A stretch of 57,497 nt of DNA from Marinisporobacter sp. (GTDB taxonomy: Bacteria > Bacillota > Clostridia > Peptostreptococcales > Thermotaleaceae): positions 1 through 57,497 of the forward strand of contig JAOARP010000001.1 in the NCBI GenBank assembly GCA_025210525.1. Reading direction: 5' to 3'. Below the pieces are notes generated by a model. It did not search any database, was not told the DNA's origin, and saw only the letters and a list, made by a program, of their open reading frames with translations. How positions within the stretch are numbered: the stretch's first letter is position 1; each line of letters opens with the position of its first letter. Both the position numbers and the translations under genes were made by a program. Below are positions 37,191 to 56,371 of the stretch, one piece after another.

Positions 37191-38939
37191 TTATTTATCA
37201 GGAGCTTCAAGGGCTTTTATTTTCCTATATAAAGTTCTAAGACCTATACCTAGTTCTTTTGCTGCTGCAGTTTTTCCTTTAACATGCCATCCATGCTTAT
37301 CTAAAGCTGCATGAATAGTTTCTATTTCTATATTTTTGACTTTTTTCCTCATAACTAAATCATTTTTATGTATAGAGTCAAGGTGTAGAAATTTTTCTGG
37401 AAGATTATTACGAGAGACGATGTTTTCCTCTTCCATATTTACAGCATATTCTACTGCGTTTTCAAGTTCTCGTACATTGCCAGGCCAACTATATGCTTTA
37501 AAAGATGATAAGGAATCAGAAGAAAAGTAAATGAGTCGTTTATCTAATTTTAAATTGTATTTTTTTAGAAAGTGCATAGCTAAAATTTCAATATCTTCCC
37601 TTCTTTCTCGAAGAGGAGGTAATTTTAAAGGAATTACATTCAATCGATAATAAAGATCTGCTCGAAATTCTTTTTTGGAGACCATTTCTTCTAAGTTTTG
37701 ATTGGTAGCAGCTACAATTCGTATATCAACAGGAATGGAGCGAATACCACCTACTCTTTCGATAGTACGTTCTTGAAGAACTCTTAAAAGTTTTGATTGC
37801 ATGAATAAAGGCATTTCTCCAATTTCATCTAAAAATAGGGTACCTCCTTGAGCTAATTCAATACGACCAGGCTTGCCACCTTTTTTTGCTCCTGTAAAAG
37901 CCCCTTCTTCATAACCGAACAATTCACTTTCAAAAAGACTTTCAGGAATACTTGAGCAGTTGATAGAAATAAGAGGAAATTCTGACCGATGACTATTATA
38001 ATGGATAGCTTTTGCTAATAATTCTTTTCCAGTACCTGTTTCGCCAGTAATTAGAACAGATGAAGTACTCTTTGCTATTTTTTGTACTTTACTTTTCAGG
38101 GTATAGATAGCTTTACTTTTTCCTTTGATATGATCTAGTGAAAATTTATCTTCTATTTCTTTTTTATTTTTCTTGTTTTCCTTTAAATTTTGATGTTCAT
38201 CTATTCGTACTACAGCGCCAATAAATTCATGATCATTTTTTATGGGTGAGGAAGAGATAAAAATATCAAATTTTTCCCTTTTTATATATTTTTTTTTGAT
38301 AGTATTTCCTTCTAAAATTTCTTCTATAGTTGCCTCAGGAAGAATATTAGATAATGAGTTTGTGTGAAGATTACAAAATGAAAATAGTTTAAGAGCAGAA
38401 TGATTACAGTAGGTAATAAAGCCATCTTTGTCTATGACGAATACGCTAGATTTGGATGTATCCATAACTAACTGGAGGGTTTTATTTAAATGAATCAATG
38501 TATCTTTTTTATGGTTTTGTATAGCTATCATGGCTACTAAGTCTGAAAACTCTTTTAAAATATTCAGATAAGTGTCTACATTTTCTGTAAGTCTGTCATG
38601 ACCTTCTTTGGTAAAGGAAGTTAAAGCTACTACACCAATAGATTCATTTTGAAATTTGATGCAATTTAATATTTCTATTGTTGCAGGGCAGTGATCTTTA
38701 AAACGACAACCGATACATGATTTCATATGACCAGGTTTATTTACCAATATATTTCCTAAGGAAAGAACTTCTTCTAAAGAGGGAGTATGTACAGTTTTTC
38801 CCTTTTGTTCTAAGTAGTTTGGTGTACAGGAAATCAACTGATATTGACTGTCAAATATAGCAACTTCAATATGAAAGGTATTGGATAGACCTGTAATGAT
38901 TTTTTGAAGATTAGGACTGACCGCCTTAAGTGAGATCAT
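37191..38939 (-). CDS. Sigma-54-dependent enhancer-binding regulator with Cys-containing sensor domain
   Basis: A 582-residue activator. Residues 1-150 form a sensor with a cysteine cluster C75-x2-C78-x5-C84; ~155-250 is a PAS-like domain (SSVFVIDKDGFITYCNHSAL); ~270-505 is the AAA+ module with Walker A GETGTGKE (299-306), the sigma-54 contact loop GAFTGA (346-351) and Walker B TLFLDEIGEM. The Fis-type helix-turn-helix is at the end (KTAAAKELGIGLRTLYRKIK). ATG 38939 follows GGAGAGGTG; the longer frame to 39047 lacks an RBS. It is divergent from the SDR-GcvP-like operon, whose -24/-12 promoter needs such an activator. The sensor ligand is unknown. Confidence 0.93.
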   Translation of the reverse strand: MISLKAVSPNLQKIITGLSNTFHIEVAIFDSQYQLISCTPNYLEQKGKTVHTPSLEEVLSLGNILVNKPGHMKSCIGCRFKDHCPATIEILNCIKFQNESIGVVALTSFTKEGHDRLTENVDTYLNILKEFSDLVAMIAIQNHKKDTLIHLNKTLQLVMDTSKSSVFVIDKDGFITYCNHSALKLFSFCNLHTNSLSNILPEATIEEILEGNTIKKKYIKREKFDIFISSSPIKNDHEFIGAVVRIDEHQNLKENKKNKKEIEDKFSLDHIKGKSKAIYTLKSKVQKIAKSTSSVLITGETGTGKELLAKAIHYNSHRSEFPLISINCSSIPESLFESELFGYEEGAFTGAKKGGKPGRIELAQGGTLFLDEIGEMPLFMQSKLLRVLQERTIERVGGIRSIPVDIRIVAATNQNLEEMVSKKEFRADLYYRLNVIPLKLPPLRERREDIEILAMHFLKKYNLKLDKRLIYFSSDSLSSFKAYSWPGNVRELENAVEYAVNMEEENIVSRNNLPEKFLHLDSIHKNDLVMRKKVKNIEIETIHAALDKHGWHVKGKTAAAKELGIGLRTLYRKIKALEAPDK

Positions 38940-38985
38940 AGGAAACACCTCTCCTTTATTAATTATAGAAAATATGTATATTTCT

Positions 38986-39014
38986 ATTATAAAATAATTT
39001 GAAATATATGACAA
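38986..39014 (-). promoter_or_regulatory. Candidate sigma-A promoter of the sigma-54 regulator gene
   Basis: On the minus strand: TTGTCA (plus 39009-39014), 17 bp, TATAAT (plus 38986-38991). The -35 lies within the left arm of the inverted repeat at 39004-39042. Confidence 0.6.
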
Positions 39015-39042
39015 ATTATTTGACACAATATTTGTCATATAT
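39004..39042. promoter_or_regulatory. Perfect 13-bp inverted repeat, candidate enhancer for the sigma-54 activator
   Basis: ATATATGACAAAT (39004-39016) and ATTTGTCATATAT (39030-39042), with a 13-bp spacer that itself contains TTTGACA. The centre is about 190 bp upstream of the -24/-12 promoter, a usual enhancer distance, and the left arm covers the regulator's own -35. Confidence 0.6.
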
Positions 39043-39209
39043 GGCAAGTGAATGGGATGAATTAACTAAAAATTCATTAAATTACAATTAAGACATTTCT
39101 CGTAAAGATGAAATTCAAGGGTGATTAAATAAATGAAATTCAGGAAAAACAGGGTTATTGTAAGAGAAGATAGTTAAATAACACAAGTTAATCACAAAAC
39201 GTAGAAAAC

Positions 39210-39226
39210 TGGCATGAGATATGCAT
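39210..39226 (+). promoter_or_regulatory. Sigma-54 (-24/-12) promoter of the SDR-GcvP-like operon
   Basis: TGGCATGAGATATGCAT: the invariant GG (39211-39212) and GC (39223-39224) are 10 bp apart, and the -24 element TGGCATG fits the TGGCAYG consensus. It lies 77 bp before the first gene of the operon and faces it. Confidence 0.8.
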
Positions 39227-39302
39227 CTTCTACAAGGTGTGAAAAACTATAAGGAGAATTTTAAGAGTCCAAGCATAAAAAAGACACAAGGAGGGGTTTT
39301 GT

Positions 39303-40097
39303 ATGTTACAGAAAAAGGATTTTTTATCATTAGAAGGAAAGGTAGCGGTTGTTTCAGGAGCAGCTGGGGGAATTGGATTGGCTACAGCACAACTTTTATC
39401 AGCCTATGGAGCGAAAGTAGCAATGCTTGATGTAAACCCACAGGGAGAAAAAGAAGCTGAATGTATTAGAAAAGAAGGAAGAATAGCTGAATTTTTAAAA
39501 TGTGATGTTACATCTAGTGAAAATGTAAAAGAAGTTGTTCATGAGATTAAAGAAAAGTTTGGACATATTGATATTTTATTTAATAATGCAGGGGTTACAG
39601 TTAGAAAAACTGTTGTAGGACTAGAAGAAAAAGAATGGGATTTTGTATTGGATGTAGGATTAAAAGGTACATATTTATTGTCAAAGCATGTGATTCCAAT
39701 TATGGCAGAAGGTGGTGGAGGGAGCATTATCAACACAGGTTCTGGATGGGGATTAAAAGGTGGAGACGATGCAGCTGCTTATTGTGCAGTAAAGGGTGGT
39801 ATTGTTAATTTAACTCGTGCTATGGCAATTGATCATGGAAAGGAAAATATTCGAGTAAATAGTGTTAATCCTGGAGATACAGATACAGCAATGCTTAGAG
39901 ATGAAGGTCGTCAAACAGGGATAGTAGTAGATGAGAAATCACAGGAGGAATATCTTGTTGATTGTGGGAAAGACAGACCTCTTGGAAGACTTGGAACTAC
40001 AGAAGATATTGCAAAAGCAGTGCTGTTTTTAGCAAGTGATCTTTCAAGCTGGATTACAGGTAGTGCAGTGGTAGTTGATGGTGGGGGGATTGCATAG
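39303..40097 (+). CDS. Short-chain dehydrogenase/reductase
   Basis: A 264-residue classical SDR. The cofactor loop is VSGAAGGIGLATAQ (residues ~18-31), with LDV at the end of beta-2 suggesting an NAD(H) preference. NNAG is present; the catalytic Ser is in NTGSGWG and Tyr/Lys in AYCAVKGG. The C-terminus ITGSAVVVDGGG is typical. The substrate is unknown; as the first gene of the sigma-54 operon it may interconvert an alcohol and a carbonyl in the pathway built around the GcvP-like pair. ATG 39303 follows AAGGAGGGG. Confidence 0.9.
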   Translation: MLQKKDFLSLEGKVAVVSGAAGGIGLATAQLLSAYGAKVAMLDVNPQGEKEAECIRKEGRIAEFLKCDVTSSENVKEVVHEIKEKFGHIDILFNNAGVTVRKTVVGLEEKEWDFVLDVGLKGTYLLSKHVIPIMAEGGGGSIINTGSGWGLKGGDDAAAYCAVKGGIVNLTRAMAIDHGKENIRVNSVNPGDTDTAMLRDEGRQTGIVVDEKSQEEYLVDCGKDRPLGRLGTTEDIAKAVLFLASDLSSWITGSAVVVDGGGIA

Positions 40098-40188
40098 TTA
40101 ATCTTTAATGTAGTGTGGTTCATAGGAATAGAGATATTTCAATTTTAAAAACTGTAAAAATAAAGAATTTATCTAGGAGGGAAAATAA

Positions 40189-41592
40189 ATGAGTATACAA
40201 GGATTTAAATCACACCCATATATTCCAAATTCGGTTTTAGAAGTACAACAAGAAATGTTAAAGGAAATAGGACTAAATAGTCTTGAAGAGCTTCATGCAG
40301 AAATTCCAGAAGAAATTAAATTGAAAGAGAATATGAATTTTCCAAAACCTTTTAAATCTGAATATGCCCTAAAAAGACATGTAGAAGGATTGCTTAAAAA
40401 AAATAAAACTTGTAATGATAACATTAACTTCTTAGGAGCTGGTTGTTGGCAACATTATGTGCCAGCTATATGTGATGAAATCAATTCAAGAGGAGAGTTT
40501 TTGACGGCTTATGGTGGAGAACCATACAATGACTTTGGAAGATTTCAGTCTTTATTTGAATACCAAAGCTTAGTTGCAGAACTTGTAGATATGGATGTAG
40601 TAAATGTTCCAACAATGGATGGGGCACAAGCAGCAGCTACGGCTATTAGAATGGCTGGAAGAATTACAGGAAGAAATGAAATATTGGTGCCAAAAGCAAT
40701 GGATGAAGAGAAATTCTTAATCATAAAGAATTATTGTGAACCAGATTTGATCCTTATTAAAGTAGATTATGACCAAGGAACGGGTCAATTGGATCTTGAT
40801 GATTTAAAGAAAAAGATTTCCGAAAAGACAGCAGCCGTATTTTTTGAAAATCCTTCCTTCTTGGGATTTATTGAAGAGCATGGACAAGAAATTTCTGATA
40901 TTGCACATGATGCTGGTGCTCTTAGTGTTGTAGGGGTAGACCCAAGTTCATTAGGGGTATTGACACCTCCGAGTCAATATGGCGCAGATATTATTAGTGG
41001 AGATTTGCAGCCATTAGGAATGCATATGAATTACGGTGGCGGTCAATCTGGTTTTATGGCTACTCGTGATGAAGAAAAGTTTGTTATGGAATTTCCATCC
41101 CGTTTATTTGGAATTGCTCCAACTAGTGTAGAAGGGGAGTATGGTTTTGGAGATGTAGCCTATGATAGAACTTCTTTTGGACACCATAGGCATGAAGGAA
41201 AGGAATACGTTGGAACACAAACAGCTCTTTGGGGAATTACAGCAGGAGTTTATCTAGCAACTATGGGACCTAATGGTATGTTTGAATTAGGGCAAGCAAT
41301 TATGCAAAAATCTCAATACGCCATAAAGAAATTGAATGAAATAAAAGGAGTAAAAGGTTCTTTATTTAATGGGGTAAACTTCAAAGAGTTTGTAGTGAAT
41401 TTTGATGGAACTACAAAAACTGTAAAAGAAATAAATAGAATGTTAAGAGAAAGAAATATATTTGGTGGTAAAGATTTATCTAAAGAGTTTCCTGAGCTAG
41501 GAGAAAGTGCTTTGTATTGCGTAACAGAGATTCATATGAAAGAGGATATTGATCGATTAGTAGTAGCTATTGAAGAATGTGTGAAGGCATAA
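40189..41592 (+). CDS. GcvPA-like PLP enzyme subunit, divergent from glycine decarboxylase
   Basis: A 467-residue homologue of glycine dehydrogenase (decarboxylating) subunit 1. Shared with GcvPA are FLGAG (81-85), HYVPAICDEI, the SLFEYQSLVAEL block (121-132) and MDGAQA. As I recall the family, the stretch after EF(L/Y)TAY in true GcvPA is YTPYQPEISQGTLQ; here it is GGEPYNDFGRFQ (109-120). The later REKATSNICTNQ block is replaced by EGKEYVGTQTALWGITAG. Both are near the active site of the glycine enzyme, so the substrate is probably not glycine, or the H-protein is not used. It pairs with the GcvPB-like gene 34 bp downstream. Automatic annotation will call it gcvPA; I do not adopt that symbol. 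Confidence 0.85.
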   Translation: MSIQGFKSHPYIPNSVLEVQQEMLKEIGLNSLEELHAEIPEEIKLKENMNFPKPFKSEYALKRHVEGLLKKNKTCNDNINFLGAGCWQHYVPAICDEINSRGEFLTAYGGEPYNDFGRFQSLFEYQSLVAELVDMDVVNVPTMDGAQAAATAIRMAGRITGRNEILVPKAMDEEKFLIIKNYCEPDLILIKVDYDQGTGQLDLDDLKKKISEKTAAVFFENPSFLGFIEEHGQEISDIAHDAGALSVVGVDPSSLGVLTPPSQYGADIISGDLQPLGMHMNYGGGQSGFMATRDEEKFVMEFPSRLFGIAPTSVEGEYGFGDVAYDRTSFGHHRHEGKEYVGTQTALWGITAGVYLATMGPNGMFELGQAIMQKSQYAIKKLNEIKGVKGSLFNGVNFKEFVVNFDGTTKTVKEINRMLRERNIFGGKDLSKEFPELGESALYCVTEIHMKEDIDRLVVAIEECVKA

Positions 41593-41626
41593 GATATCAT
41601 TTTGGAAATAGAAAGGAAGGATAATC

Positions 41627-43198
41627 ATGAAGAGAATCAATAGAAATTACAAAGTAAGAAACTTTCATCAAGCGAAATGGGATGAGCCAATTATATTTGA
41701 ATTGAGCAAAAAGGGAGAAAGAGGTGTGTTAGTGCCTCAAGCTGAAGAAGAAGTTGCAGCTCTAGTTGGAGATGGGATATCTAAAATTCCAAAGGGAATG
41801 CTTAGAGAGGAGCCTCCTAAATTGCCAGAAATATCTCAACCAAGGGTATTAAGACACTATATGCGTTTGTCTCAAATGACATTAGGTGCAGATGTGAATG
41901 TCGAAATTGGCCAAGGAACTTGTACTGTAAAGTATAGTCCAAAAGTAAATGAACAATTAGGGAAAATGCCAGAGATCACAGAAGTACATCCTCTCCAACA
42001 TGAAAGCACGGTGCAAGGTATTTTAGAAATCATGTACAAAACGGAACTTTGTATGAGAGAAATTTCAGGAATGGACCGTTTTACATTCCAGCCAGGTGGT
42101 GGAAGTCAAGCGATTATGGCAATGGCCGCTGTAGTAAGAGCTTACCATAAGGCAAATGGAAATGAGGATCAAAAGGACGAAATTATTACTACTATTTATT
42201 CTCATCCATCAGATGCAGCAGCACCCGCATTAATGGGATATAAAATTATTTATATCCATCCAGATGAGGAAGGGTATCCAGACTTGGAAGCTTTCAAAGA
42301 AGCAGTTTCTGATAGAACAGCAGCCTTTATTGTTGCAAATCCAGAAGATACTGGAGTATATAATAAAAGGGTACAAGAGTTTACACGCCTTGTACATGAA
42401 AAGGGTGGTCTTTGCTGTTATGACCAAGCGAATGCAAATGGCCTATTAGGTGTAACAAGAGCAAGGGAAGCCGGATTTGATATGTGTCATTTTAATTTAC
42501 ATAAAACATTCTCAACACCTCATGGATGCGGGGGGCCTGCTACAGGAGCTATGGGTGTGATAAAAGAATTAGAGAAATTTATGCCAGCACCCCTTGTTGA
42601 TTTTGATGGAGAAAAATATTTCTTAAATTATAATCTTACAAACAATCCATATGCATTAAGAAAAGTTAGATCCTTTAATGGGGTTGCACCAGTTGTTATG
42701 AAGACTTATGCATGGATTATGAATTTAGGAGCTGAGGGTTTATATGAAGCTGCTAAAATAGCCGTGTTAAATAACAACTATTTATTTAAAAAATTGATGG
42801 CATTAGATTGCGTAGATGCACCATATATTAAAGGAAGACAACGTATAGAACAGGTAAGGTATACACTAGAAAAATTGACAGAAGATACAGGCGTTAAAAC
42901 AGAAGATGTACAAAGAAGAATGATGGATTTTGGGATGCACTATTGGTGCAGTCATCATCCATACTATGTTCCAGAGCCAATGACACTAGAGCCTACTGAA
43001 ACACCTTCAAAAGAAGACTTAGATGAATATATAGGAACTTTAGAACATATTTTTGAAGAAGCTTATAAAACACCAGAAAAATTCAAGAATGCGCCATATT
43101 CTAGTTCGTGCCATAGAGTAGATGAATCTGGTATGGATGATCCTATGGAGTGGGCAATTACTTGGAGAAGTTATTTAAAGAAATCTACTGTTGAATAA
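41627..43198 (+). CDS. GcvPB-like PLP enzyme subunit, divergent from glycine decarboxylase
   Basis: A 523-residue homologue of the PLP-binding subunit 2 of glycine decarboxylase. The PLP lysine loop HFNLHKTFSTPHGCGGP (Lys at about 293) is well kept. Other signature positions differ from the glycine enzyme as I know it: GTCTVKYSP for GSCTMKYNP, HPLQHESTVQG for HPFQPEETVQG, FQPGGGSQAIMA for LQPAAGAHGE, YSHPSDAAAPALMGY for the DSAHGTNPASAAMAG block, and NPEDTGVYN for NPNTLGLFE. The fold and PLP chemistry are thus likely kept with a different substrate. No gcvT, gcvH or lpd lies in the window. Confidence 0.85.
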   Translation: MKRINRNYKVRNFHQAKWDEPIIFELSKKGERGVLVPQAEEEVAALVGDGISKIPKGMLREEPPKLPEISQPRVLRHYMRLSQMTLGADVNVEIGQGTCTVKYSPKVNEQLGKMPEITEVHPLQHESTVQGILEIMYKTELCMREISGMDRFTFQPGGGSQAIMAMAAVVRAYHKANGNEDQKDEIITTIYSHPSDAAAPALMGYKIIYIHPDEEGYPDLEAFKEAVSDRTAAFIVANPEDTGVYNKRVQEFTRLVHEKGGLCCYDQANANGLLGVTRAREAGFDMCHFNLHKTFSTPHGCGGPATGAMGVIKELEKFMPAPLVDFDGEKYFLNYNLTNNPYALRKVRSFNGVAPVVMKTYAWIMNLGAEGLYEAAKIAVLNNNYLFKKLMALDCVDAPYIKGRQRIEQVRYTLEKLTEDTGVKTEDVQRRMMDFGMHYWCSHHPYYVPEPMTLEPTETPSKEDLDEYIGTLEHIFEEAYKTPEKFKNAPYSSSCHRVDESGMDDPMEWAITWRSYLKKSTVE

Positions 43199-43222
43199 AT
43201 TCTCTAAAAAGGATGGGATAAC

Positions 43223-44332
43223 TTGAAAAAGCTAGGACTAATTATTAATCCCATTGCTGGAATGGGGGGCAGAGTTGGATTGAAGGGCACCGATGGCGTA
43301 ATAAATCAGGCCATAAAGCTTGGGGCCCTTCCCCAAGCTCCTAATCGTGCTATCATGAGTCTTAATGTTTTAAGTGACTTAAGAGAAAAAATGGAAATTG
43401 TCACTTGTTCTGGAGATATGGGAGAAAATGAAGCGAAAAAATGTGGTTTTAATACAAGGGTCGTTTTAGATACTAAAAATAGAAATACAAATCAGCAAGA
43501 TACTATTATTGCTGCGAGAAAATTATTGGAAGAAGAGGTAGATCTTATTTTATTTGCAGGGGGAGATGGAACAGCCAGAGATATCTATAAAGCAATAGGA
43601 GATGAAATAACGGTTGTAGGGATTCCAGCAGGTGTGAAAATTCATTCAGCAGTATATGCTAGTAGTCCTAAAAAAGCTGGAGATCTAGCCTATTTATATC
43701 TAGAAGACAATATAGGGAAAGTACAGGAAGTAGAAGTGATGGATATTGATGAAGAGGCTTTTAGACGTGGAATTGTAAAGACAAGATTGTATGGGTATTT
43801 AAAAATACCTTTTGAAAGAAGATTTTTACAGGGGAAAAAATCAGGAAGTGTTTTGAGTGATCAAGCTTCACAAAAAGTTATAGCCTATGATATTGTTGAT
43901 CATATGGAGGATGATGTATATTACGTTGTAGGACCAGGATCTACAACACGACCGATTATGGAGCTTTTAGAAATTCCATATACTCTTTTAGGAGTGGATT
44001 TAGTATACAATAAGAAATTAATAAAAAAGGATCTCACAGAAAAAGAATTATTAAAAGAGATATGTGATAAAAAGGCAAAGCTTATTATAACACCTATTGG
44101 GGGGCAAGGGTATTTATTTGGACGAGGAAATCAGCAAATAAGTCCGAACGTTATAAGGCAGGTAGGGAAGAAAAATATTATTGTTGTTGCTACAAATCAA
44201 AAACTTCGATCATTAGGAGGAAGACCATTTCTTGTAGATACAGGGGAGGATTTGCTAGATCAAGAATTAGGTGGATATATAAAGGTGGTTTCTGGATATA
44301 AGGAATTGGTTATGTATAAGATAGATAGCTAA
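43223..44332 (+). CDS. ATP-NAD kinase family protein (AcoX-like)
   Basis: A 369-residue protein of the NAD kinase/diacylglycerol kinase superfamily, COG3199-like. LGLIINPIAGMGGRVGLKG at the N-terminus, the FAGGDGTARD nucleotide motif (about residues 113-122), VVGIPAGVKIHSAVYA and ITPIGGQGYLFGRGNQQ are visible. Relatives (AcoX) lie in acetoin dehydrogenase operons with no settled role. Here it follows the GcvPB-like gene by 24 bp and may supply NADP or phosphorylate a pathway compound. It starts with TTG 43223 after GGATGGG. Confidence 0.85.
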   Translation: MKKLGLIINPIAGMGGRVGLKGTDGVINQAIKLGALPQAPNRAIMSLNVLSDLREKMEIVTCSGDMGENEAKKCGFNTRVVLDTKNRNTNQQDTIIAARKLLEEEVDLILFAGGDGTARDIYKAIGDEITVVGIPAGVKIHSAVYASSPKKAGDLAYLYLEDNIGKVQEVEVMDIDEEAFRRGIVKTRLYGYLKIPFERRFLQGKKSGSVLSDQASQKVIAYDIVDHMEDDVYYVVGPGSTTRPIMELLEIPYTLLGVDLVYNKKLIKKDLTEKELLKEICDKKAKLIITPIGGQGYLFGRGNQQISPNVIRQVGKKNIIVVATNQKLRSLGGRPFLVDTGEDLLDQELGGYIKVVSGYKELVMYKIDS

Positions 44333-44524
44333 GGGAAAAATAATTTTTTTTGCCAGAAATTTTCTGATAATTTTATAAATTTAGAATATAAATAAAAAAG
44401 AAGCAGGAGGTGGTTGCTGCTTGTACAACAGATGAAGACTATTTATTTGGATTAAAGAGAGGAGGATAGAGGATTTTATTAGTAGTATCATAATGAAAGC
44501 TATTAAAAAACAGGAGGGTGTTTT
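44333..44524 (+). other. Gap between the NAD-kinase-like and NhaC-like genes
   Basis: 190 bases. A short frame from GTG 44410 to TAG 44469 encodes 19 residues (VVAACTTDEDYLFGLKRGG), with AGGAGG too close to the start to be a good RBS. No terminator is seen, so the transporter is probably in the same operon. Confidence 0.4.
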
Positions 44525-45991
44525 ATGGGACTTTTAAAAATTTCACCGATTTTTGTACTTGCGGGACTTATGATATCGGGGCTTGATGTGTTATTGGCAG
44601 CACCTATTGCAACGATTGTTGCTGCAATTGTTGCAATGGCTACAGAAAAGTATAAGTTCAAACAGATTATGGAGTTTGCTTTAGATAATGTTAGAGAAAT
44701 TGTTATTGTATTTTTTATATTAATGTTTGCTTATGGTTTAGCAGAAGCTTTTATGGCTACGGGTGTTGGTGCTTCTATTATCATTGCAGCATTAAAAATG
44801 GGTGTTACAGCTAAAAGTGTTGCTGTAGTAGGGTTTTTAGTAACTTGTATATTATCTATTGCAACAGGAACATCTTGGGGGACTTTTGCAGCTTGTGCGC
44901 CTGTATTTTTATGGTTAAATCATATTGTTGGGGGAGATATTATATTAACAGTTTGCTCTATTGCTGGTGGAGCTTGCTTTGGAGATAATATTGGTCTTAT
45001 ATCAGATACTACAGTACTTAGTTCAGGACTGCAAAAAGTTGAAATCATTCATAGAATTAGGCATCAAGGAGTTTGGTCAGGATTATGTGCTTTAGCTACA
45101 GCAATTGTTATTTATTTTGTTGGTGTATCTATGGGGCTTCCAAGTACAGTTGGAAATGCCACTGAAGCTATTAATGCAATTCCACAAACAGCATGGGATG
45201 CTTTAGCTCAGGAGAGGGCGTCTGCCGTAACTTTACTGGAACAAGTTAAAAGTGGAGTACCTATGTATATGATTATTCCATTAATTATTGTTATTGGAAT
45301 GGCTATTAAAGGATTACAAACGATGATTTGTCTAGGTGCAGGGATTTTATCTGCATTAATATTGGGCTTTGGAGCAGGAACAGTTACAAGTCTTAATGCA
45401 TTTTTAAATGATCAAATTATGACTGGATTTGGTGATGCAGGTGAATGGTCTATTGTAATGATGATGTGGGTAGCTTCCTTTGGTGGAATTATGAATAGTA
45501 TGCATGCTTTCGAACCTATATCTAAAGCATTTGTAAGTATGTCTAGAAATGTAAGGCAGTTAATGACTTTTAATGGGCTACTTTGCTTATTTGGTAATGC
45601 AGCTTTTGGGGATGAAACAGCGGAAATCGTTACCATTAGTCCTATTATTAAAAATATTACTGATGAAAATGTTGAAGCAACTGAAGAAGATATGTATAAG
45701 TTAAGACTTAGAAATGCAACCTTTGCAGATGCTTTTGGGGTATATGGTTCACAATTAATACCATGGCATTGTTTTGTATTATTCTATGTTGCTATTGCAA
45801 AAGCTGTATATCCTCTTCATGATTTTGTACCAACAGACATTATTAGAATGAATTTTATGGCGTTTATAGCAGTAGGGTCTATGTTGATTCTTACGATTAC
45901 AGGATGGGACCGATTTGTACCACTATTTGGACTTCCAAGGGAACCTCAAGTAAGGTTAAGGAAAAAAGGAAGTGCAGTGAAGGATATGTAA
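44525..45991 (+). CDS. NhaC family Na+/H+ antiporter-like transporter
   Basis: A 488-residue membrane protein with about eleven hydrophobic segments. SIATGTSWGTFAACAPVFLW, AGGACFGDNIGLISDTTVLSS and GNAAFGDETAEIVTISPI are NhaC-family blocks. Some members exchange carboxylates or amino acids rather than only Na+ and H+. As the last gene of the sigma-54 operon it is a good candidate for uptake of the pathway's substrate or export of its product. ATG 44525 follows CAGGAGGG. The terminator is at 46017-46053. Confidence 0.88.
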   Translation: MGLLKISPIFVLAGLMISGLDVLLAAPIATIVAAIVAMATEKYKFKQIMEFALDNVREIVIVFFILMFAYGLAEAFMATGVGASIIIAALKMGVTAKSVAVVGFLVTCILSIATGTSWGTFAACAPVFLWLNHIVGGDIILTVCSIAGGACFGDNIGLISDTTVLSSGLQKVEIIHRIRHQGVWSGLCALATAIVIYFVGVSMGLPSTVGNATEAINAIPQTAWDALAQERASAVTLLEQVKSGVPMYMIIPLIIVIGMAIKGLQTMICLGAGILSALILGFGAGTVTSLNAFLNDQIMTGFGDAGEWSIVMMMWVASFGGIMNSMHAFEPISKAFVSMSRNVRQLMTFNGLLCLFGNAAFGDETAEIVTISPIIKNITDENVEATEEDMYKLRLRNATFADAFGVYGSQLIPWHCFVLFYVAIAKAVYPLHDFVPTDIIRMNFMAFIAVGSMLILTITGWDRFVPLFGLPREPQVRLRKKGSAVKDM

Positions 45992-46016: not shown

Positions 46017-46053
46017 AAAGAGGAAATCCTTTTCAGAAGGATTTCTTCTTTTG
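46017..46053 (+). terminator. Intrinsic terminator of the sigma-54 operon
   Basis: AAAGAGGAAATCCTT (46017-46031) pairs with AAGGATTTCTTCTTT (46037-46051), with one G-T pair, and is followed by TT. Confidence 0.82.
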
Positions 46054-46188: not shown

Positions 46189-47121
46189 ATGAGAAAAGAT
46201 AGAAGAGTAAAAAAACCGATTGTTAGTATCATGAAGGATAAAAAGGAAGAAGATTCTGTTGTAAAAGCATTAGATTTATTACCTATAAGTGAAATGATAA
46301 AAAAAGAGGATGTAGTGGTAATTACTCCTAATTGGGTGAAATCAAAGCCTCCATATACAGGAACTGTAGTAGGACCTAATACACTAAGGGCTCTTATACA
46401 ATATATAAAAAGATTTAAGCCTAAAAGAATAGTTATTGCTACAGGCTCTGGTGGAGACTCTACTACTAAAGTATTAACTACTGTAGGATATGATAAGGTT
46501 ATAGAGGAAGAGAATGTAGAATTTATAGATTTAAATTATGGGCCTTATATAGAACTCCAGTTAGAGCATGATCAATTAAAGAGTACGAAAATCAATGAAC
46601 TAATTAATGAAGTAGATGTGCTTATTTCATTTACTCAATTAAAACAACATGAAGAAGCGACTATGAGTGCTGGAATTAAAAATATTGCATTAGCATGGCC
46701 TCCAGCAGAAATTCATGGCTTTCCTAAAAAGAAATTAGGGATTCATGAAGATTTACATGGGTTTATTGTAGCAATGGTAAAAAAAATACCTATAGATTTA
46801 GCTATTATAAGTGTGGATAAATCTATGATAGGAACAGGTCCTTCTGAGGGGAAGGCTGTAGATACACCAGGAGTGATTATTGCTGGTACAGATCCTATTG
46901 CCACAGATACAATAGGAGCTAGGTTGTTAGGATTTTTACCTCAAGGAGTGAGTTATCTTTATCAGCTTTATAGAGAAGGAATAGGGGTTGCAGAACCTGA
47001 AAAGATGGATTTGAAGGGGATTTCTCTTGAAGAAGCAGAAAGAGTATTTAGCAAAGCAGCTTTTCAACAAGAAATTATATTAGATAAGAATAAAATAAAA
47101 AATATACATGGAAATCAATAG
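46189..47121 (+). CDS. DUF362 domain-containing protein
   Basis: A 310-residue protein of the DUF362 family: VVVITPNWVKSKPP, GPNTLRALIQYIKRFKP, IATGSGGDST, INEVDVLISFTQLKQHEEATMSAGIKN (shown in part) and IIAGTDPIATDTIGARLLGF. Many DUF362 proteins carry a ferredoxin domain; this one has no CxxCxxC cluster. Function is unknown. It lies after a terminator, so it is probably independent of the sigma-54 operon. Confidence 0.82.
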   Translation: MRKDRRVKKPIVSIMKDKKEEDSVVKALDLLPISEMIKKEDVVVITPNWVKSKPPYTGTVVGPNTLRALIQYIKRFKPKRIVIATGSGGDSTTKVLTTVGYDKVIEEENVEFIDLNYGPYIELQLEHDQLKSTKINELINEVDVLISFTQLKQHEEATMSAGIKNIALAWPPAEIHGFPKKKLGIHEDLHGFIVAMVKKIPIDLAIISVDKSMIGTGPSEGKAVDTPGVIIAGTDPIATDTIGARLLGFLPQGVSYLYQLYREGIGVAEPEKMDLKGISLEEAERVFSKAAFQQEIILDKNKIKNIHGNQ

Positions 47122-51445: not shown

Positions 51446-51835
51446 ATGAAAAAAATATTAATCACAAATAATTCGAAAGTTTATGAAGAAAATAAAGAAA
51501 AGATGGACATAATTTATTCAGAAGAGTATACATACTTAGACATTCTTGCTATCACTAGAGATAAGATTCATGAGGGGCACAAATTGATGACCCATCCTCT
51601 TTCGGGAAGTGTCAAACCTAATGAGACTCCTTTTAAGTCTACTATTGTTACAAAAGAAATGGGTCGGCTTCACATAGAATCACTTGAAATTATTGAAGGA
51701 AGTATTAAAACAGCAGAAAAGTTTATCAGTGGAAAAAAAACTCCTCTTTGGTCAGAAAAAATATTGGAGGATTTTAAAGTTATTGATTATTGTTTGATAA
51801 AAGGTGCATTAGAAAGCATGGATCAATTTCATTGA
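51446..51835 (+). CDS. grdX: GrdX family protein
   Basis: A 129-residue protein that regularly opens glycine reductase operons. KKILITNNSKVYEE, DILAITRDKIHEGHKLMTHP, SGSVKPNETPFKST and DYCLIKGALES match what I recall of GrdX. Its biochemical role is unknown. It is the first gene after the glycine riboswitch. Confidence 0.88.
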   Translation: MKKILITNNSKVYEENKEKMDIIYSEEYTYLDILAITRDKIHEGHKLMTHPLSGSVKPNETPFKSTIVTKEMGRLHIESLEIIEGSIKTAEKFISGKKTPLWSEKILEDFKVIDYCLIKGALESMDQFH

Positions 51836-51867
51836 TTATTTAAAATCATGAAGAAGGAGGCAAAAGA

Positions 51868-52815
51868 ATGAAAAATGTATATGATATAGTCATTATAGGT
51901 GCAGGACCTGCAGGTTTAGCAGCAGGGCTATATGCAGCAAGAGCAAAAATGAAAACATTGATTTTAGAAAGAGACAAAACTGGAGGACAAATTGTTACCA
52001 CAAATGAAGTAGCAAATTATCCTGGCTCTATTCAAAATGCCACAGGACCAAGTCTTATTGCAAGGATGGTAGAACAAACAGAAGAATTTGGAGCAGAGAG
52101 AAAAAAAGATACTGTAATAGATGTTGATTTTACAGAAAAAATAAAAGTCATAAAGGGAGAAAAAGAAGAGTATAAGGCGAAAGCAGTTATTATAGCGAAT
52201 GGCGCTACACCAAGACCTATTGGATGTCCTGGAGAAAGAGAATTGACAGGAAAAGGTGTATCTTATTGTGCAACTTGTGATGCAGACTTTTTCACAGATT
52301 TAGAAGTGTTTGTAATAGGTGGAGGCGATTCAGCAGTAGAAGAAGCCATGTATTTAACAAAGTTTGCAAGGAAAGTTACGATTGTACATAGAAGAGATGA
52401 ATTAAGAGCTGCAAAATCTATTCAAGATAAAGCATTTAAAAATGAAAAGATGAATTTCATGTGGGATACGGTAGTTGAAGAAATAAAAGGAGATGGCATT
52501 GTAGAGTCGGTTATATTTAAAAACAAGAAAACAGAAGAAACAAACGAGTATCATGCAGATGAAGATGATGGAACTTTTGGAATTTTCCCATTTGTAGGAT
52601 ATAAACCTCAAAGTGATGTTTTTAAAGAAAAAATAGAATTAAATGAAAGCGGCTATGTTATTACAGATGCTGATATGAAGACAAATGTAGCAGGTGTATT
52701 TGCTGCTGGAGATATTAGAGTAAAATCCTTAAGACAGGTAGTAACTGCTACAGCTGATGGTGCAATTGCAGCTGTTACAGCAGAAAAATATATTGAAAAT
52801 AATTTTGAAGAATAA
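51868..52815 (+). CDS. trxB: Thioredoxin reductase of the glycine reductase system
   Basis: A 315-residue flavoenzyme. FAD loop [18 protein letters not shown], redox motif YCATCDADF (about residues 133-141), NADPH loop [15 protein letters not shown] and the FAD-binding end VFAAGDIR...[10 protein letters not shown]. It reduces the TrxA encoded 13 bp downstream, which then reduces the selenoprotein of glycine reductase. The RBS is AAGGAGG. Confidence 0.96.
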
Positions 52816-52828
52816 GGGAGGAATTTAT

Positions 52829-53149
52829 ATGTTAGCACTTGATAAAAAAACTTTTCAAGAAGAAGTTTTGGAATCATCAGGATTTGTTCTTGTAGATTTT
52901 TGGAGTGATGGTTGTGAGCCATGCAAAGCTTTAATGCCAGATGTGGAAGAACTTGCAGCTCAATATGAAGGAAAAGTAAAATTTGCAAAATTAAACACAA
53001 CAAAAGCTAGAAGACTTGCTATATCTCAAAGAGTATTAGGTCTTCCAACATTGTTATTATATAAAGATGGTGAAAAGATTGATGAAGTAACAAAGGATGA
53101 TGCAACAAAAGGCAATATTCTTGCCATGCTTCAAAAACATGTAGGATAG
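52829..53149 (+). CDS. trxA: Thioredoxin of the glycine reductase system
   Basis: A 106-residue thioredoxin with active site G28-C29-E30-P31-C32 rather than WCGPC, and cis-Pro in LGLPT. Non-standard active sites are known in thioredoxins of glycine-reductase clostridia, where they match the partner TrxB. It lies between trxB and grdE. A diverged paralogue is at 380-697. The ATG at 52829 follows AAGGGAGG. Confidence 0.95.
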
Positions 53150-53216
53150 GTTATAATTCACACTAGTAGGTATAACCTACTAGATGTGGGTTAAAATAAA
53201 AAGGGAGGTGAATCAT

Positions 53217-54503
53217 GTGCGCTTAGAATTAGGAAAAATTAATATTACAGATGTTCAATTTGGGGACACAACCAAAGTAGAAAATGGAATATTATATGTA
53301 AACAAAGAAGAGATCATTAGTATGATAAAGGAAGATGATCACATTAAGAGCGTGCAGGTAGAACTTGCGAAACCAGGTGAAGAAACCAGAATAACTCCTG
53401 TAAAGGATGTTATTGAACCAAGAGTAAAAGTTGATGGACAAGGTGGTATATTCCCTGGAGTAATCAATAAAGTTACTACTGTAGGATCAGGTCGCACACA
53501 TGTATTAAAAGGAGCCGCAGTGGTTACTTGCGGTAAAATCGTAGGTTTCCAGGAAGGTATTATTGATATGAGTGGTCCTGGAGCTGAGTATACTCCGTTT
53601 TCAAAATTAAATAATGTTTGTTTGGTTATTGAACCAATAGACGATTTGAAACAACATGAATATGAAGCTGCTGTAAGAATGGCAGGATTAAAAGTAGCTA
53701 GTTTCATTGGTGAAGCAGGAAAAGAAATTACTCCTGATGAAGTAGAAGTTTATGAGACAAAGCCATTATTTGAGAGTGTTGCTGAGTATCCAGATCTACC
53801 AAAGGTTGGTTATGTTTATATGCTTCAAACACAAGGGCTACTTCATGATACTTATGTGTATGGTGTAGATGCAAAGAAAATAGTACCTACAATTCTTTAT
53901 CCAACAGAAGTAATGGATGGAGCAATTCTTAGCGGTAACTGCGTATCAGCTTGTGATAAAAATACAACTTATCATCATTTAAATAATCCAATCATTCATG
54001 ATTTATATGAAAGACATGGAAAAGATATTAACTTTGTAGGAGTAATCATTACAAATGAAAACGTATATCTTGCAGATAAGGAGAGATCTTCAAATTGGAC
54101 TGCAAAGCTTTGCAAGTTCTTAGGACTTGATGGTGCCCTTGTATCTCAAGAAGGTTTTGGTAATCCAGATACAGACCTTATTATGAATTGCAAGAAAATT
54201 GAAAATGAAGGTGTGAAAACTGTTATCGTTACTGACGAATATGCAGGTCGTGATGGTGCATCTCAATCTCTTGCAGATGCAGATCCAAAAGCTGATGCTG
54301 TGGTAACTGGCGGTAATGCAAATGAAGTCATTGTGCTTCCTCCAATGAAAAGAATAATTGGAATGCTTGATTATGTAGATAGAATCGCTGGAGGCTTTGA
54401 TGGAAGTTTAAGACCTGATGGAAGTATTGAAGCTGAAATCCAAGTAATCACTGGAGCAACAAATGAATTAGGTTTCAATAAGATGTCTGCTACAGGATAT
54501 TAA
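53217..54503 (+). CDS. grdE: Glycine reductase component B, GrdE proprotein
   Basis: A 428-residue substrate-binding proprotein of component B. The start is GTG 53217, which follows AAGGGAGGTG; an ATG two bases earlier is out of frame. In the family the chain is cleaved before a Cys that becomes an N-terminal pyruvoyl-type carbonyl; here the likely site is Asn241-Cys242 in LSGNCVSACDKNT. The carbonyl forms a Schiff base with glycine. VNKVTTVGSGRTHVLKGAAV-like and TDEYAGRDGASQSLADADP blocks are family-typical. It pairs with GrdB. Substrate (glycine rather than sarcosine or betaine) is inferred from the glycine riboswitch and gene order. Confidence 0.94.
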   Translation: MRLELGKINITDVQFGDTTKVENGILYVNKEEIISMIKEDDHIKSVQVELAKPGEETRITPVKDVIEPRVKVDGQGGIFPGVINKVTTVGSGRTHVLKGAAVVTCGKIVGFQEGIIDMSGPGAEYTPFSKLNNVCLVIEPIDDLKQHEYEAAVRMAGLKVASFIGEAGKEITPDEVEVYETKPLFESVAEYPDLPKVGYVYMLQTQGLLHDTYVYGVDAKKIVPTILYPTEVMDGAILSGNCVSACDKNTTYHHLNNPIIHDLYERHGKDINFVGVIITNENVYLADKERSSNWTAKLCKFLGLDGALVSQEGFGNPDTDLIMNCKKIENEGVKTVIVTDEYAGRDGASQSLADADPKADAVVTGGNANEVIVLPPMKRIIGMLDYVDRIAGGFDGSLRPDGSIEAEIQVITGATNELGFNKMSATGY

Positions 54504-54552
54504 TATAAAGGGCTTTAAAACAAAAAAATAAATGAGAGAAAGGATGGTAGCC

Positions 54553-55023
54553 ATGAGTATTTTAGATGGTAAAAAAGTCATCGTCATTGGTGACAGAGAT
54601 GGTATACCAGGTCCTGCTATGGAAGAGTGTCTAAAAGACACAGGTGCAGAAGTAGTATTCTCTTCTACTGAATGCTTTGTCTGAACCGCTGCAGGAGCAA
54701 TGGACCTAGAAAATCAAAACAGGGTAAAAACGTTAACAGAAAAGTATGGAGCAGAAAATATGCTAGTACTTTTAGGAGCAGCAGAAGCGGAAGCTGCAGG
54801 CTTAGCTGCTGAAACTGTAACAAATGGAGACCCTACTTTTGCAGGTCCATTAGCAGGAGTTCAGTTAGGACTCAGAGTATATCATATTGTAGAGCCAGAA
54901 ATTAAAGAATCCGTAAATGAAGAAGTATATGAAGACCAAGTTGGCATGATGGAAATGGTATTAGAAGTTGATGAGGTCATTGAAGAGATGAGTTCAATGA
55001 GAGAACAATTCTGTAAATATTAA
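54553..55023 (+). CDS. grdA: Glycine reductase selenoprotein A, with in-frame UGA read as selenocysteine
   Basis: One gene of 157 codons including the stop. TGA at 54682-54684 is codon 44, in the motif CFV-U-TAAG, the known place of selenocysteine in GrdA. The frame continues to TAA at 55021. GrdA carries the carboxymethyl group as a Se-carboxymethyl-selenoether and delivers acetyl to component C. A hairpin follows the UGA directly (54686-54703). The product is small and acidic, with [20 protein letters not shown] and [15 protein letters not shown] as family blocks. The stop codon is not a mutation. Confidence 0.96.
54686..54703 (+). promoter_or_regulatory. SECIS-like hairpin of grdA
   Basis: CCGCTGC, loop AGGA, GCAATGG (one mismatch, one G-U), beginning one base after the UGA. 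The position fits a bacterial SECIS element read by SelB. Confidence 0.6.
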
Positions 55024-55060
55024 AAAAATTTCCCGTTAAAAATACGAGAGGGGGGAAAAC

Positions 55061-56371
55061 ATGAGCAAGATTAGAGTTGTTCATTATATAAACCAATTCT
55101 TCGCAGGTATTGGTGGAGAAGAAAAAGCAGATATAAAGCCGGAAGTGAGAGAAGGCGTAGTAGGACCAGGAATGGCATTAAAAGGAGCTTTTAAGGATGA
55201 AGCTGAGATTGTTGCTACGGTCATTTGTGGAGATTCCTATTTCAATGAAAATATTGAAGAAGCAAAAGCTGTTATTATAGATATGGTGAAAGAGTATAAT
55301 CCTGACTTGTTCATTGCAGGTCCAGCTTTTAATGCAGGTAGATATGGTGTAGCTTGTGGAGCTATTAGTAAAGCTGTAAAAGAAGCTTTTGATATTCCAG
55401 TTGTAACAGCTATGTATCCGGAAAATCCTGGATCAGATATGTTTAAAAAAGATCTTTATATTATCGAGACAGGAAACTCAGCTGCTACGATGAGAAAAGC
55501 TATTCCAGCTTTAGCGAAATTTGCTCTAAAGATTGGAAAAGGTGAAGAAATTGGGGCTCCTAGTGTAGAGGGATATATCCCAAGAGGAGTAAGAAAGAAT
55601 ATTTTCAGAGAAGAAAGAGGATCAAAGAGAGCTGTTGATATGCTGGTTAAGAAGTTAAAGGGCGAGGAATTTGTTACAGAATATCCAATGCCAGACTTTG
55701 ATAATGTGACGCCGGGTAAAGCTATCCCAGATATATCAAAAGCAAAAGTAGCTATTGTTACTTCTGGTGGTATTGTACCAAAAGGAAATCCAGATCATAT
55801 TGAATCGTCAAGTGCATCAAAATATGGTAAATATGATATTGCTGATTTTAGTGATTTAACAGCTGAAACTCATGAAACAGCACATGGTGGCTATGACCCT
55901 GTTTATGCTAATGAAGATTCAGATAGAGTATTACCTGTTGATGTCTTAAGAGATTTAGAAAAAGAAGGAAGAATCGGAGAACTTCACAGATATTTCTATA
56001 CTACTACAGGAAATGGAACATCTGTTGGTAATTCTAAAAAGTTTGCAGCTGAGTATGCACAAGAATTAGTAGCAGATGGTGTAGATGCAGTTATTCTAAC
56101 ATCAACCTGAGGTACTTGTACACGTTGCGGTGCAACGATGGTAAAAGAAATTGAAAGAACTGGAATTCCAGTTGTTCATATGTGTACGGTTGTTCCTATC
56201 TCATTAACAGTTGGAGCAAATAGAATCGTACCTACAATTGCTATTCCTCATCCTCTAGGAAATCCATCATTGGATCCAGAGGAAGAGAAAAAAATAAGAA
56301 GAAAATTAGTTGAAAAAGCATTAAAAGCATTAGAAACAGAAGTAGAAGAACAAACTGTTTTTGAAGATTAA
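55061..56371 (+). CDS. grdB: Glycine reductase component B selenoprotein GrdB, with in-frame UGA
   Basis: One gene of 436 residues. TGA at 56108-56110 is codon 350 in LTST-U-GTCTRCGATM, the known selenocysteine place of GrdB. The N-terminal VVHYINQFFAGIGGEEKAD, PAFNAGRYGVACG and the later THETAHGGYDPVYANEDSDRVLP (seen in part) are family blocks. GrdB works with processed GrdE to form the selenoether of the substrate and pass it to GrdA. The start is 37 bp after grdA with GAGGGGGG. Two shorter frames on either side of the UGA would otherwise be called as a broken gene. Confidence 0.96.
56123..56137 (+). promoter_or_regulatory. SECIS-like hairpin of grdB
   Basis: CGTTGC, loop GGT, GCAACG: a perfect 6-bp stem starting 12 bases after the UGA at 56108. 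Confidence 0.6.

Follow-up and report, generated by a model that had tools for sequence, protein, structure and literature searches.

Organization and control of the locus

The locus studied here lies in a window of 57,497 nucleotides (nt) from Marinisporobacter sp. (contig JAOARP010000001.1, assembly GCA_025210525.1; coordinates refer to this whole stretch), where a gene for a sigma-54 activator faces five genes encoding a short-chain dehydrogenase/reductase (SDR), two proteins resembling the GcvPA and GcvPB subunits of the pyridoxal phosphate (PLP)-dependent glycine decarboxylase (hereafter PA and PB), an AcoX-like protein, and an NhaC-like transporter. A sequence-only reading had described this arrangement, and gene order, strands, and spacing were all as claimed, while Pfam and NCBIfam searches bore out the families that it had assigned (sigma-54 activator, SDR, GcvPA-like, GcvPB-like, AcoX/NAD-kinase-like, and NhaC-like). 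The features of the locus are as follows.

37191..38939, minus strand: sigma-54 enhancer-binding activator with an N-terminal sensor region containing a Cys cluster, a PAS domain, an AAA+ domain, and a Fis-type helix-turn-helix (HTH) (Pfam Sigma54_activat, 2.1e-71; PAS; HTH_8)
38999..39047, strand not applicable: inverted repeat (38999-39016 / 39030-39047), 18-nt arms, 89% complementary, 13-nt spacer
39210..39225, plus strand: -24/-12 sigma-54-type site TGGCATGAGATATGCA, 77 nt upstream of the SDR start
39303..40097, plus strand: SDR dehydrogenase, predicted first enzymatic step (adh_short_C2, 9.3e-65)
40189..41592, plus strand: GcvPA-like subunit of the PLP enzyme (GDC-P, 9.4e-61; NF001696, 486 bits, cut-off 364)
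41627..43198, plus strand: GcvPB-like catalytic subunit with the PLP lysine K293 (GcvP2_C; NF003346, 556 bits, cut-off 441)
43223..44332, plus strand: AcoX / ATP-NAD-kinase-like protein (NAD_kinase, 8.3e-20; NAD_kinase_C, 9.5e-20)
44525..45991, plus strand: NhaC/ArcD-type transporter, predicted substrate importer or exchanger (Na_H_antiporter, 1.2e-19)
46023..46045, placed on the minus strand by the scan: hairpin with a 9-pair stem, candidate operon end

Translation of the activator likely starts at the ATG at 38939, which is preceded by GGAGAGG, in preference to the TTG at 39047 given in the list of open reading frames (ORFs). The protein shares its domain layout with PrdR and with further sigma-54 activators that control amino-acid fermentation in clostridia, and PrdR was its top NCBIfam match, but the score fell well below the PrdR cut-off (421 versus 795 bits) and the target operon is a different one. 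In the SDR, the S..Y...K residues and an Asp after beta-2 were conserved in at least 95% of 80 aligned homologues, and the enzyme is probably NAD-dependent, a preference that we presume from the Asp rule. The AcoX-like protein carries both the N- and C-terminal NAD_kinase domains and the GGDGT motif that mark the AcoX / NAD kinase family, with GGDGTAR conserved in at least 95% of 84 sequences; no NCBIfam model exceeded its cut-off on this protein, and a search of solved structures gave no relatives. The transporter remained far below the NCBIfam cut-offs (63 of 370 bits for NhaC and 40 of 650 bits for ArcD), and a PDB search at E 0.1 returned no relative of it.

The -24/-12 element that the sequence-only reading had taken as a promoter is present at 39210-39225, and comparable sites occur at homologous operons. 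The shuffle statistics come from the homologous gaps between activator and operon, the window's own site not having been shuffle-tested: the top GG-N10-GC site reached a p of ≤0.01 in 33 of 35 gaps (200 composition shuffles each), or in 30 of 32 when three refetched places were left out, the exceptions being L055 (p 0.04) and L056 (p 0.3; L numbers denote loci). At L037/L152, L150, and L078, the highest-scoring site was located 169 to 247 nt upstream, where it may serve the activator instead of being the promoter. Thus, the unit combines a divergent activator bearing AAA+ and HTH domains with a -24/-12 site, as expected of a sigma-54-regulated operon, and as far as sequence can tell this type of control is well supported. 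The inverted repeat is probably a binding site of the activator, and it overlaps a sigma-70-like promoter match (11/12; 39014-38986, minus strand) belonging to the activator gene; sigma-70-like matches numbered 34 in the region versus 41.2 in shuffles. The terminator claimed for the operon stood on weaker ground, since a 9-pair hairpin is indeed present but the region held 4 hairpins versus 4.1 in shuffles, which is not above chance, and the scan assigned this one to the minus strand; a terminator role for it is plausible. A gene for a DUF362 protein (46189-47121) lies downstream of the hairpin and occupies the equivalent position in the close kin L035 and L037 (L152 being the same place as L037).

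Divergence of the PA-PB pair from glycine decarboxylase

The window genome also carries gcvT, gcvH, gcvPA, and gcvPB side by side on another contig (C44), the PA of which is 34% identical to the window PA. Since the genome has its own gcvT-H-PA-PB cluster, the window pair represents an extra, divergent copy. The absence of GcvT, GcvH, and Lpd from the window had been emphasized by the sequence-only reading; GcvT and GcvH are not genes of this operon, but T, H, PA, and PB are grouped elsewhere in the genome, and Lpd was not searched for.

The relationship between the two kinds of subunit was analyzed in a joint tree of 108 rows (54 A and 54 B), comprising 35 module pairs, picked from fetched loci in which 132 A and 142 B matches were available, and 19 canonical pairs, of which the order's own genomes supplied 11 and plasmids supplied 8, these being plasmids of Bacilli, Legionella, Deinococcus, Sphingomonas, Ruegeria, and haloarchaea. 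In this tree, built with a quick method and no mixture model and with long branches and odd composition flagged in some rows, the 35 module A rows and the 35 module B rows each formed one clade (support 100), separate from the 19 + 19 canonical GcvPA/GcvPB, and the A and B halves gave broadly matching subclades. The sister group is unsure, and the position of a haloarchaeal canonical PA beside the module may be an artefact. A phylogeny placing both subunits inside the normal GcvPA/GcvPB clades had been named as the result that would speak against a separate system, and the opposite was seen. Both window subunits exceeded the NCBIfam equivalog cut-offs for GcvPA (NF001696) and GcvPB (NF003346), which is probably a wrong assignment.

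With the two-subunit glycine decarboxylase of Thermus thermophilus (1wyt; 288 bits for PB and 217 bits for PA), the window enzyme shares the two-subunit PLP architecture and the PLP lysine in PB. Four PB residues, H193, D266, H292, and the PLP lysine K293, to which we ascribe roles at the PLP site by assumption, were conserved at 89% or more in both sets (19 canonical and 35 module rows). At the same threshold, 7 positions in PA and 11 in PB were conserved within each set but with differing residues, and R406, R411, and H443 were conserved in the module PB only. In the PA alignment, the canonical YTPYQPE stood opposite YGGEPYND of the module, and the presumed H-contact loop REQHIRRFKATSNIC stood opposite RTSFGHHRHEGKEYVG. 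We take Y161 and Y164 of human GLDC to fall on the YTPYQPE stretch, and R373 and K376 on the REQHIRRFKATSNIC loop. A study of the human enzyme gives the two tyrosines as active-site residues and R373 and K376 as predicted H-protein contacts (PMC7259800). Judging from these alignments, the module enzyme looks to have kept the PLP chemistry but not the glycine/H-protein apparatus. Compared with GcvPA/GcvPB, the module is set apart by its separate clades, its occurrence without GcvH and GcvT, its rewritten active-site and presumed H-contact stretches, its linkage to an alcohol dehydrogenase and AcoX, and its sigma-54-type control.

Among 247 genomes belonging to the order, 37 contain a PA homologue of at least 48% identity, and these 37 are referred to as module genomes. 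No GcvT match was obtained in 12 of them, and 11 lacked a full-length GcvH, five having no match at all and six only fragments below 23 bits, while the same search recovered a full-length GcvH from each of the remaining 26, with hits of about 1e-37 or better. Of the 11 genomes, eight have a completeness of 90% or more. G035, a single-contig genome from the same genus, is among the module genomes without GcvH and GcvT, and its locus (L142, G035:C1:2088000-2104000) consists of SDR-PA-PB without activator, AcoX, or NhaC, in a genome that gave no AcoX, GcvH, or GcvT match. This locus is a natural minimal module. Most other module genomes, the window genome included, carry both systems, and for these the presence/absence test alone may be compatible with a shared use of GcvH.

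That the pair is a second glycine decarboxylase, borrowing the genome's GcvH under special conditions, would agree with the scores above both equivalog cut-offs, with the GcvH encoded in the window genome, and with the retention of the PLP lysine and H193. Nevertheless, the missing GcvH and GcvT in 11 and 12 of the 37 module genomes, the separate clades, and the rewritten PA active-site stretch and presumed H-contact loop make this highly improbable. Ordinary glycine cleavage was rejected on the same grounds of separate clades, missing partners, and rewritten motifs. We hold with high confidence that the unit is a distinct module and not a glycine cleavage system, and the claim that the window pair is not the genome's glycine cleavage system was upheld by the clades and by the occurrence of the module without GcvH and GcvT.

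Conserved core, distribution, and carriers of the module

Conservation of the module was evaluated at 80 loci, the best 80 of 216 relatives, from named genomes. Neighbouring genes had been called with a simple greedy ORF caller that is prone to antisense ORFs (e.g., at L080), so gene presence was counted by tblastn. PA lay beside PB at 78 of the 80 loci, both misses being at contig ends. An SDR of at least 50% identity was present within 5 kb at 68 loci (5 of the 12 misses at contig ends), and AcoX was found beside PB at 59, with 4 of the 21 misses at contig ends and the other 17 made up of all 15 Bacilli loci and two Aminicenantes. The activator was nearby at 26 loci and a window-type NhaC at 6 only. 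Across the order, AcoX occurred in 35 of the 37 module genomes (one of them, G126, with a fragment) compared with 9 of 210 others (one, G103, marginal), giving a Fisher p of 1e-31 that is uncorrected for kinship; the two module genomes without it are G035, which has none in the genome, and G085. The recurring core is an alcohol dehydrogenase, PA, PB, and AcoX, and the carrier is exchangeable. That the Bacilli loci and one genome of the window's genus do without AcoX argues for an accessory role of this protein.

The module was found in Clostridia, Desulfobacterota, Spirochaetia, Bacilli, and Asgard archaea, with cousins in Alphaproteobacteria, Actinobacteria, and haloarchaea; cousins on seven plasmid records carry gcvPA/gcvPB (glycine dehydrogenase) annotation. 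Cultivable bacteria with the module include Neobacillus drentensis, which has an adjacent activator but no AcoX beside PB, and Terrisporobacter mayombei, which has AcoX. The interpretation given by the sequence-only reading was borne out in part: the PLP enzyme forms a distinct clade, but the module spans phyla and is no local oddity. No description of it was found in literature searched by title and abstract, a scope outside which most subscription papers fall, and what is new here is the setting, the genes themselves being homologous to those of a known enzyme. The window pair passes the cut-offs, yet the family to which it belongs is a separate clade and is also present where GcvH and GcvT are missing. 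For this reason, a "glycine cleavage" or "reductive glycine pathway" assigned to a metagenome bin may be wrong where it is based on gcvPA/gcvPB annotations alone.

The AcoX proteins of acetoin catabolism operons offer a second comparison. There, too, an NAD-kinase-like protein stands beside a cleaving enzyme and an alcohol dehydrogenase, but the partner in the module is a PLP enzyme, not the thiamine pyrophosphate-dependent acetoin dehydrogenase, which is not among the operon's five genes.

Neighbouring genes were surveyed at 117 tabulated loci, some of them the same place fetched twice, and part of 314 operon-neighbour proteins was scanned against family libraries. In line with the prediction of a substrate carrier, homologues adjoin amino-acid-type (APC, NhaC) or carboxylate-type (TRAP, TTT) carriers. 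NhaC-type carriers were seen in Clostridia and Spirochaetia, TRAP carriers in Desulfobacteraceae, and sugar-type ATP-binding cassette (ABC) transporters together with GH2 genes in Bacilli; APC permeases, TTT, and DUF819 carriers were further types. The dehydrogenase also varies: that of L123 is a zinc-dependent alcohol dehydrogenase nearest to threonine 3-dehydrogenase, albeit below its cut-off, and several zinc-dependent alcohol dehydrogenases are near the module at L117. Genes that may bear on the substrate include an ornithine-racemase-like gene after NhaC at L136 (458 bits, cut-off 480), APC permeases at L082, an M19 dipeptidase at L122, an ArgE/DapE-type deacylase at L116, and a glycine C-acetyltransferase-like (Kbl-like) gene at L036.

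Proposed pathway and alternative explanations

While the distinct clade of the PLP enzyme, its occurrence without GcvH/GcvT, and its linkage to an alcohol dehydrogenase and carriers are well supported, the substrate class and the bond cleaved are what we infer. Tentatively, and with confidence somewhat short of an even chance, we propose that the unit is a substrate-induced catabolic operon for a hydroxylated amino acid, which would be taken up, oxidized by the SDR, and cleaved by an H-protein-independent PLP paralogue of glycine decarboxylase. The most likely substrate would be a beta-hydroxy-alpha-amino acid similar to threonine or serine, or a compound closely analogous to these, and a hydroxy amino acid is supported by the amino-acid-type neighbours at L136, L122, L116, and L082. 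In the proposed sequence of events, the activator would sense the substrate or its state and fire the -24/-12 promoter, as the sequence and the comparison of loci suggest; the NhaC-like carrier would import the amino acid; and the SDR would use NAD to convert the hydroxyl into an alpha-amino ketone or amino keto acid. The GcvPA/GcvPB-like heterodimer would then form a PLP aldimine and break the weakened bond at the alpha carbon, either by retro-Claisen cleavage to glycine and an acyl product or by decarboxylation, and AcoX would help by unexplained means. Arginines hold the substrate carboxylate in other fold-type I enzymes. By analogy, the module-specific PB arginines would suit retention of the carboxylate and would thus favour C-C cleavage over decarboxylation. 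The Tdh-Kbl pathway offers a parallel to this logic, with oxidation of a beta-hydroxyl followed by PLP-dependent cleavage of the amino keto acid, but the PLP enzyme of the module comes from the GcvP family and not from the oxoamine synthase family, and the window dehydrogenase is a different one.

The order of the two steps was assessed at four Desulfobacterales loci (L053 to L056) where the operon has no SDR and relatives 57 to 76% identical are encoded elsewhere in the genomes. The 76% copy (L183) adjoins an NhaC-type carrier, and the copies at L184 (59%, same genome as L183) and L185 (60%, genome of L055) adjoin the same polar amino-acid ABC transporter, its families having been read in L184, of which L185 is a 95 to 96% identical copy. 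This linkage of the SDR to uptake carriers away from PA-PB mildly suggests that the SDR acts before the PLP enzyme.

Several observations weigh against the proposed pathway. Twelve of the 80 loci lack, within 5 kb, any SDR that reaches 50% identity (L096 has one farther away), and the SDR relatives in two of the four Desulfobacterales genomes (L186, L187, L188) have no recognized amino-acid carrier beside them: that of L186 is next to a cyclase and an XdhC gene, that of L187 next to an EamA carrier and a thioesterase, and that of L188 adjoins a Kelch protein and lies tail to tail with an activator gene. The copies of about 60% identity may be paralogues with another job. The proposed chemistry leaves no role for AcoX, although this protein is conserved. 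None of the neighbouring genes identifies the substrate, and the clues diverge: Bacilli carry GH2 beta-galactosidase genes and ABC genes of the sugar type, an amine oxidase and an acyl-CoA synthetase adjoin the Gemmobacter module, and TRAP/TTT carboxylate carriers stand at some loci. The GH2, oxidase, and synthetase genes suggest different or further substrates. The racemase, Kbl-like, dipeptidase, and deacylase genes each occur at only one or two of the 117 loci. A glycine product, considered by way of an association with glycine reductase, was likewise unsupported, GrdA being present in 25 of 37 module genomes versus 114 of 210 others (p 0.15).

Three other explanations differ from this pathway in the order of steps, in the role of AcoX, or in the substrate. 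One of them, following the order of the sequence-only reading, puts an amino-acid decarboxylase first, its amine or aldehyde product then passing to the SDR. Decarboxylation is the ancestral reaction of GcvP, and an amine oxidase adjoins the Gemmobacter module; still, we consider this order somewhat unlikely, given the SDR relatives that lie with a carrier and away from PA-PB in two of the four Desulfobacterales genomes (some of them possibly paralogues) and given that no amine-handling enzyme was found among the scanned shared neighbour clusters, many neighbours being outside the scan. In place of an alpha-amino acid that bears a hydroxyl close by, the substrate could be an amino alcohol or amine (e.g., aminopropanol or hydroxylysine). 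Such a compound would fit the Gemmobacter neighbours (an APC permease, an amine oxidase, and an acyl-CoA synthetase) and those of Rhodococcus (an APC permease and an AMP-binding enzyme), and the GH2 genes of Bacilli would suit an O-glycosylated amino alcohol, but the ornithine-racemase-like, dipeptidase, and amino-acid permease neighbours and the carboxylate-type TRAP and TTT carriers speak against it, and we regard it as unlikely. Kinase plus phospho-lyase pairs are known for hydroxylysine and phosphoethanolamine. AcoX might by the same scheme be a substrate kinase, and PA-PB a phospho-lyase or a beta/gamma-eliminating PLP enzyme, as the near-invariant GGDGTAR motif and the presence of AcoX in nearly all module genomes would allow; this is very unlikely, however, since G035 keeps SDR-PA-PB without an AcoX match, none of the 15 Bacilli loci has AcoX beside PB, and the alcohol dehydrogenase is left unexplained.

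In its broader form, the proposed oxidation and cleavage of a hydroxy amino acid would be a cross-domain pathway, reaching from Clostridia to Asgard archaea, in which SDR oxidation precedes a C-C cleavage that needs no H-protein and is carried out by a neofunctionalised glycine decarboxylase assisted by AcoX, and in which several substrates are served by exchangeable dehydrogenases and carriers. We consider this generalization possible but rather doubtful; if it holds, many gcvPA/gcvPB annotations would not signify glycine cleavage. Should the chemistry be as proposed, an enzyme acting on glycine by way of a lipoyl arm would have turned into a free-standing C-C lyase, AcoX would gain a setting outside acetoin catabolism, and anaerobes and Asgard archaea would have an added route of amino-acid breakdown.

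Additional observations were made on the genes around the module. At L066, L097, and L113, a GH2-type gene overlaps or abuts the SDR gene (read with Pfam in L066, with which the others cluster), and ABC permease genes lie upstream of it at L097 and L113; a glycosylated precursor of the substrate is possible at these loci. Threonine as the substrate, by way of a Kbl linkage, was considered and dropped, as a clear Kbl-like neighbour occurred at L036 only, with a 26% match at L049; the epimerase-family neighbour at L036 had D-erythronate dehydrogenase as its sole match (94 of 325 bits). An Amidohydro_3 hydrolase recurs near the module in the Clostridia-type loci L043 (= L141), L047, L065, and L144, with 35 to 57% identity to the L043 copy, and was discarded as a clue to the substrate because its solved relatives are uncharacterized hydrolases. 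The Rhodobacterales loci L119, L120, and L121 share sugar ABC transporter, dihydrodipicolinate-synthase-like, SDR, and FAD oxidoreductase genes close by, which may or may not be part of the module pathway. In the window itself, the start of a glycine/sarcosine reductase cluster is present at 51446-56110, with GrdX, a thioredoxin reductase, a GrdG/GrdE-like subunit (720 bits, GrdG cut-off 780), GrdA, which is a selenoprotein whose reading frame contains a TGA, and the initial portion of GrdB. The distance from the PA-like gene to GrdA is about 9 to 41 kb in seven genomes of the family (G000, G011, G035, G052, G061, G078, and G096).

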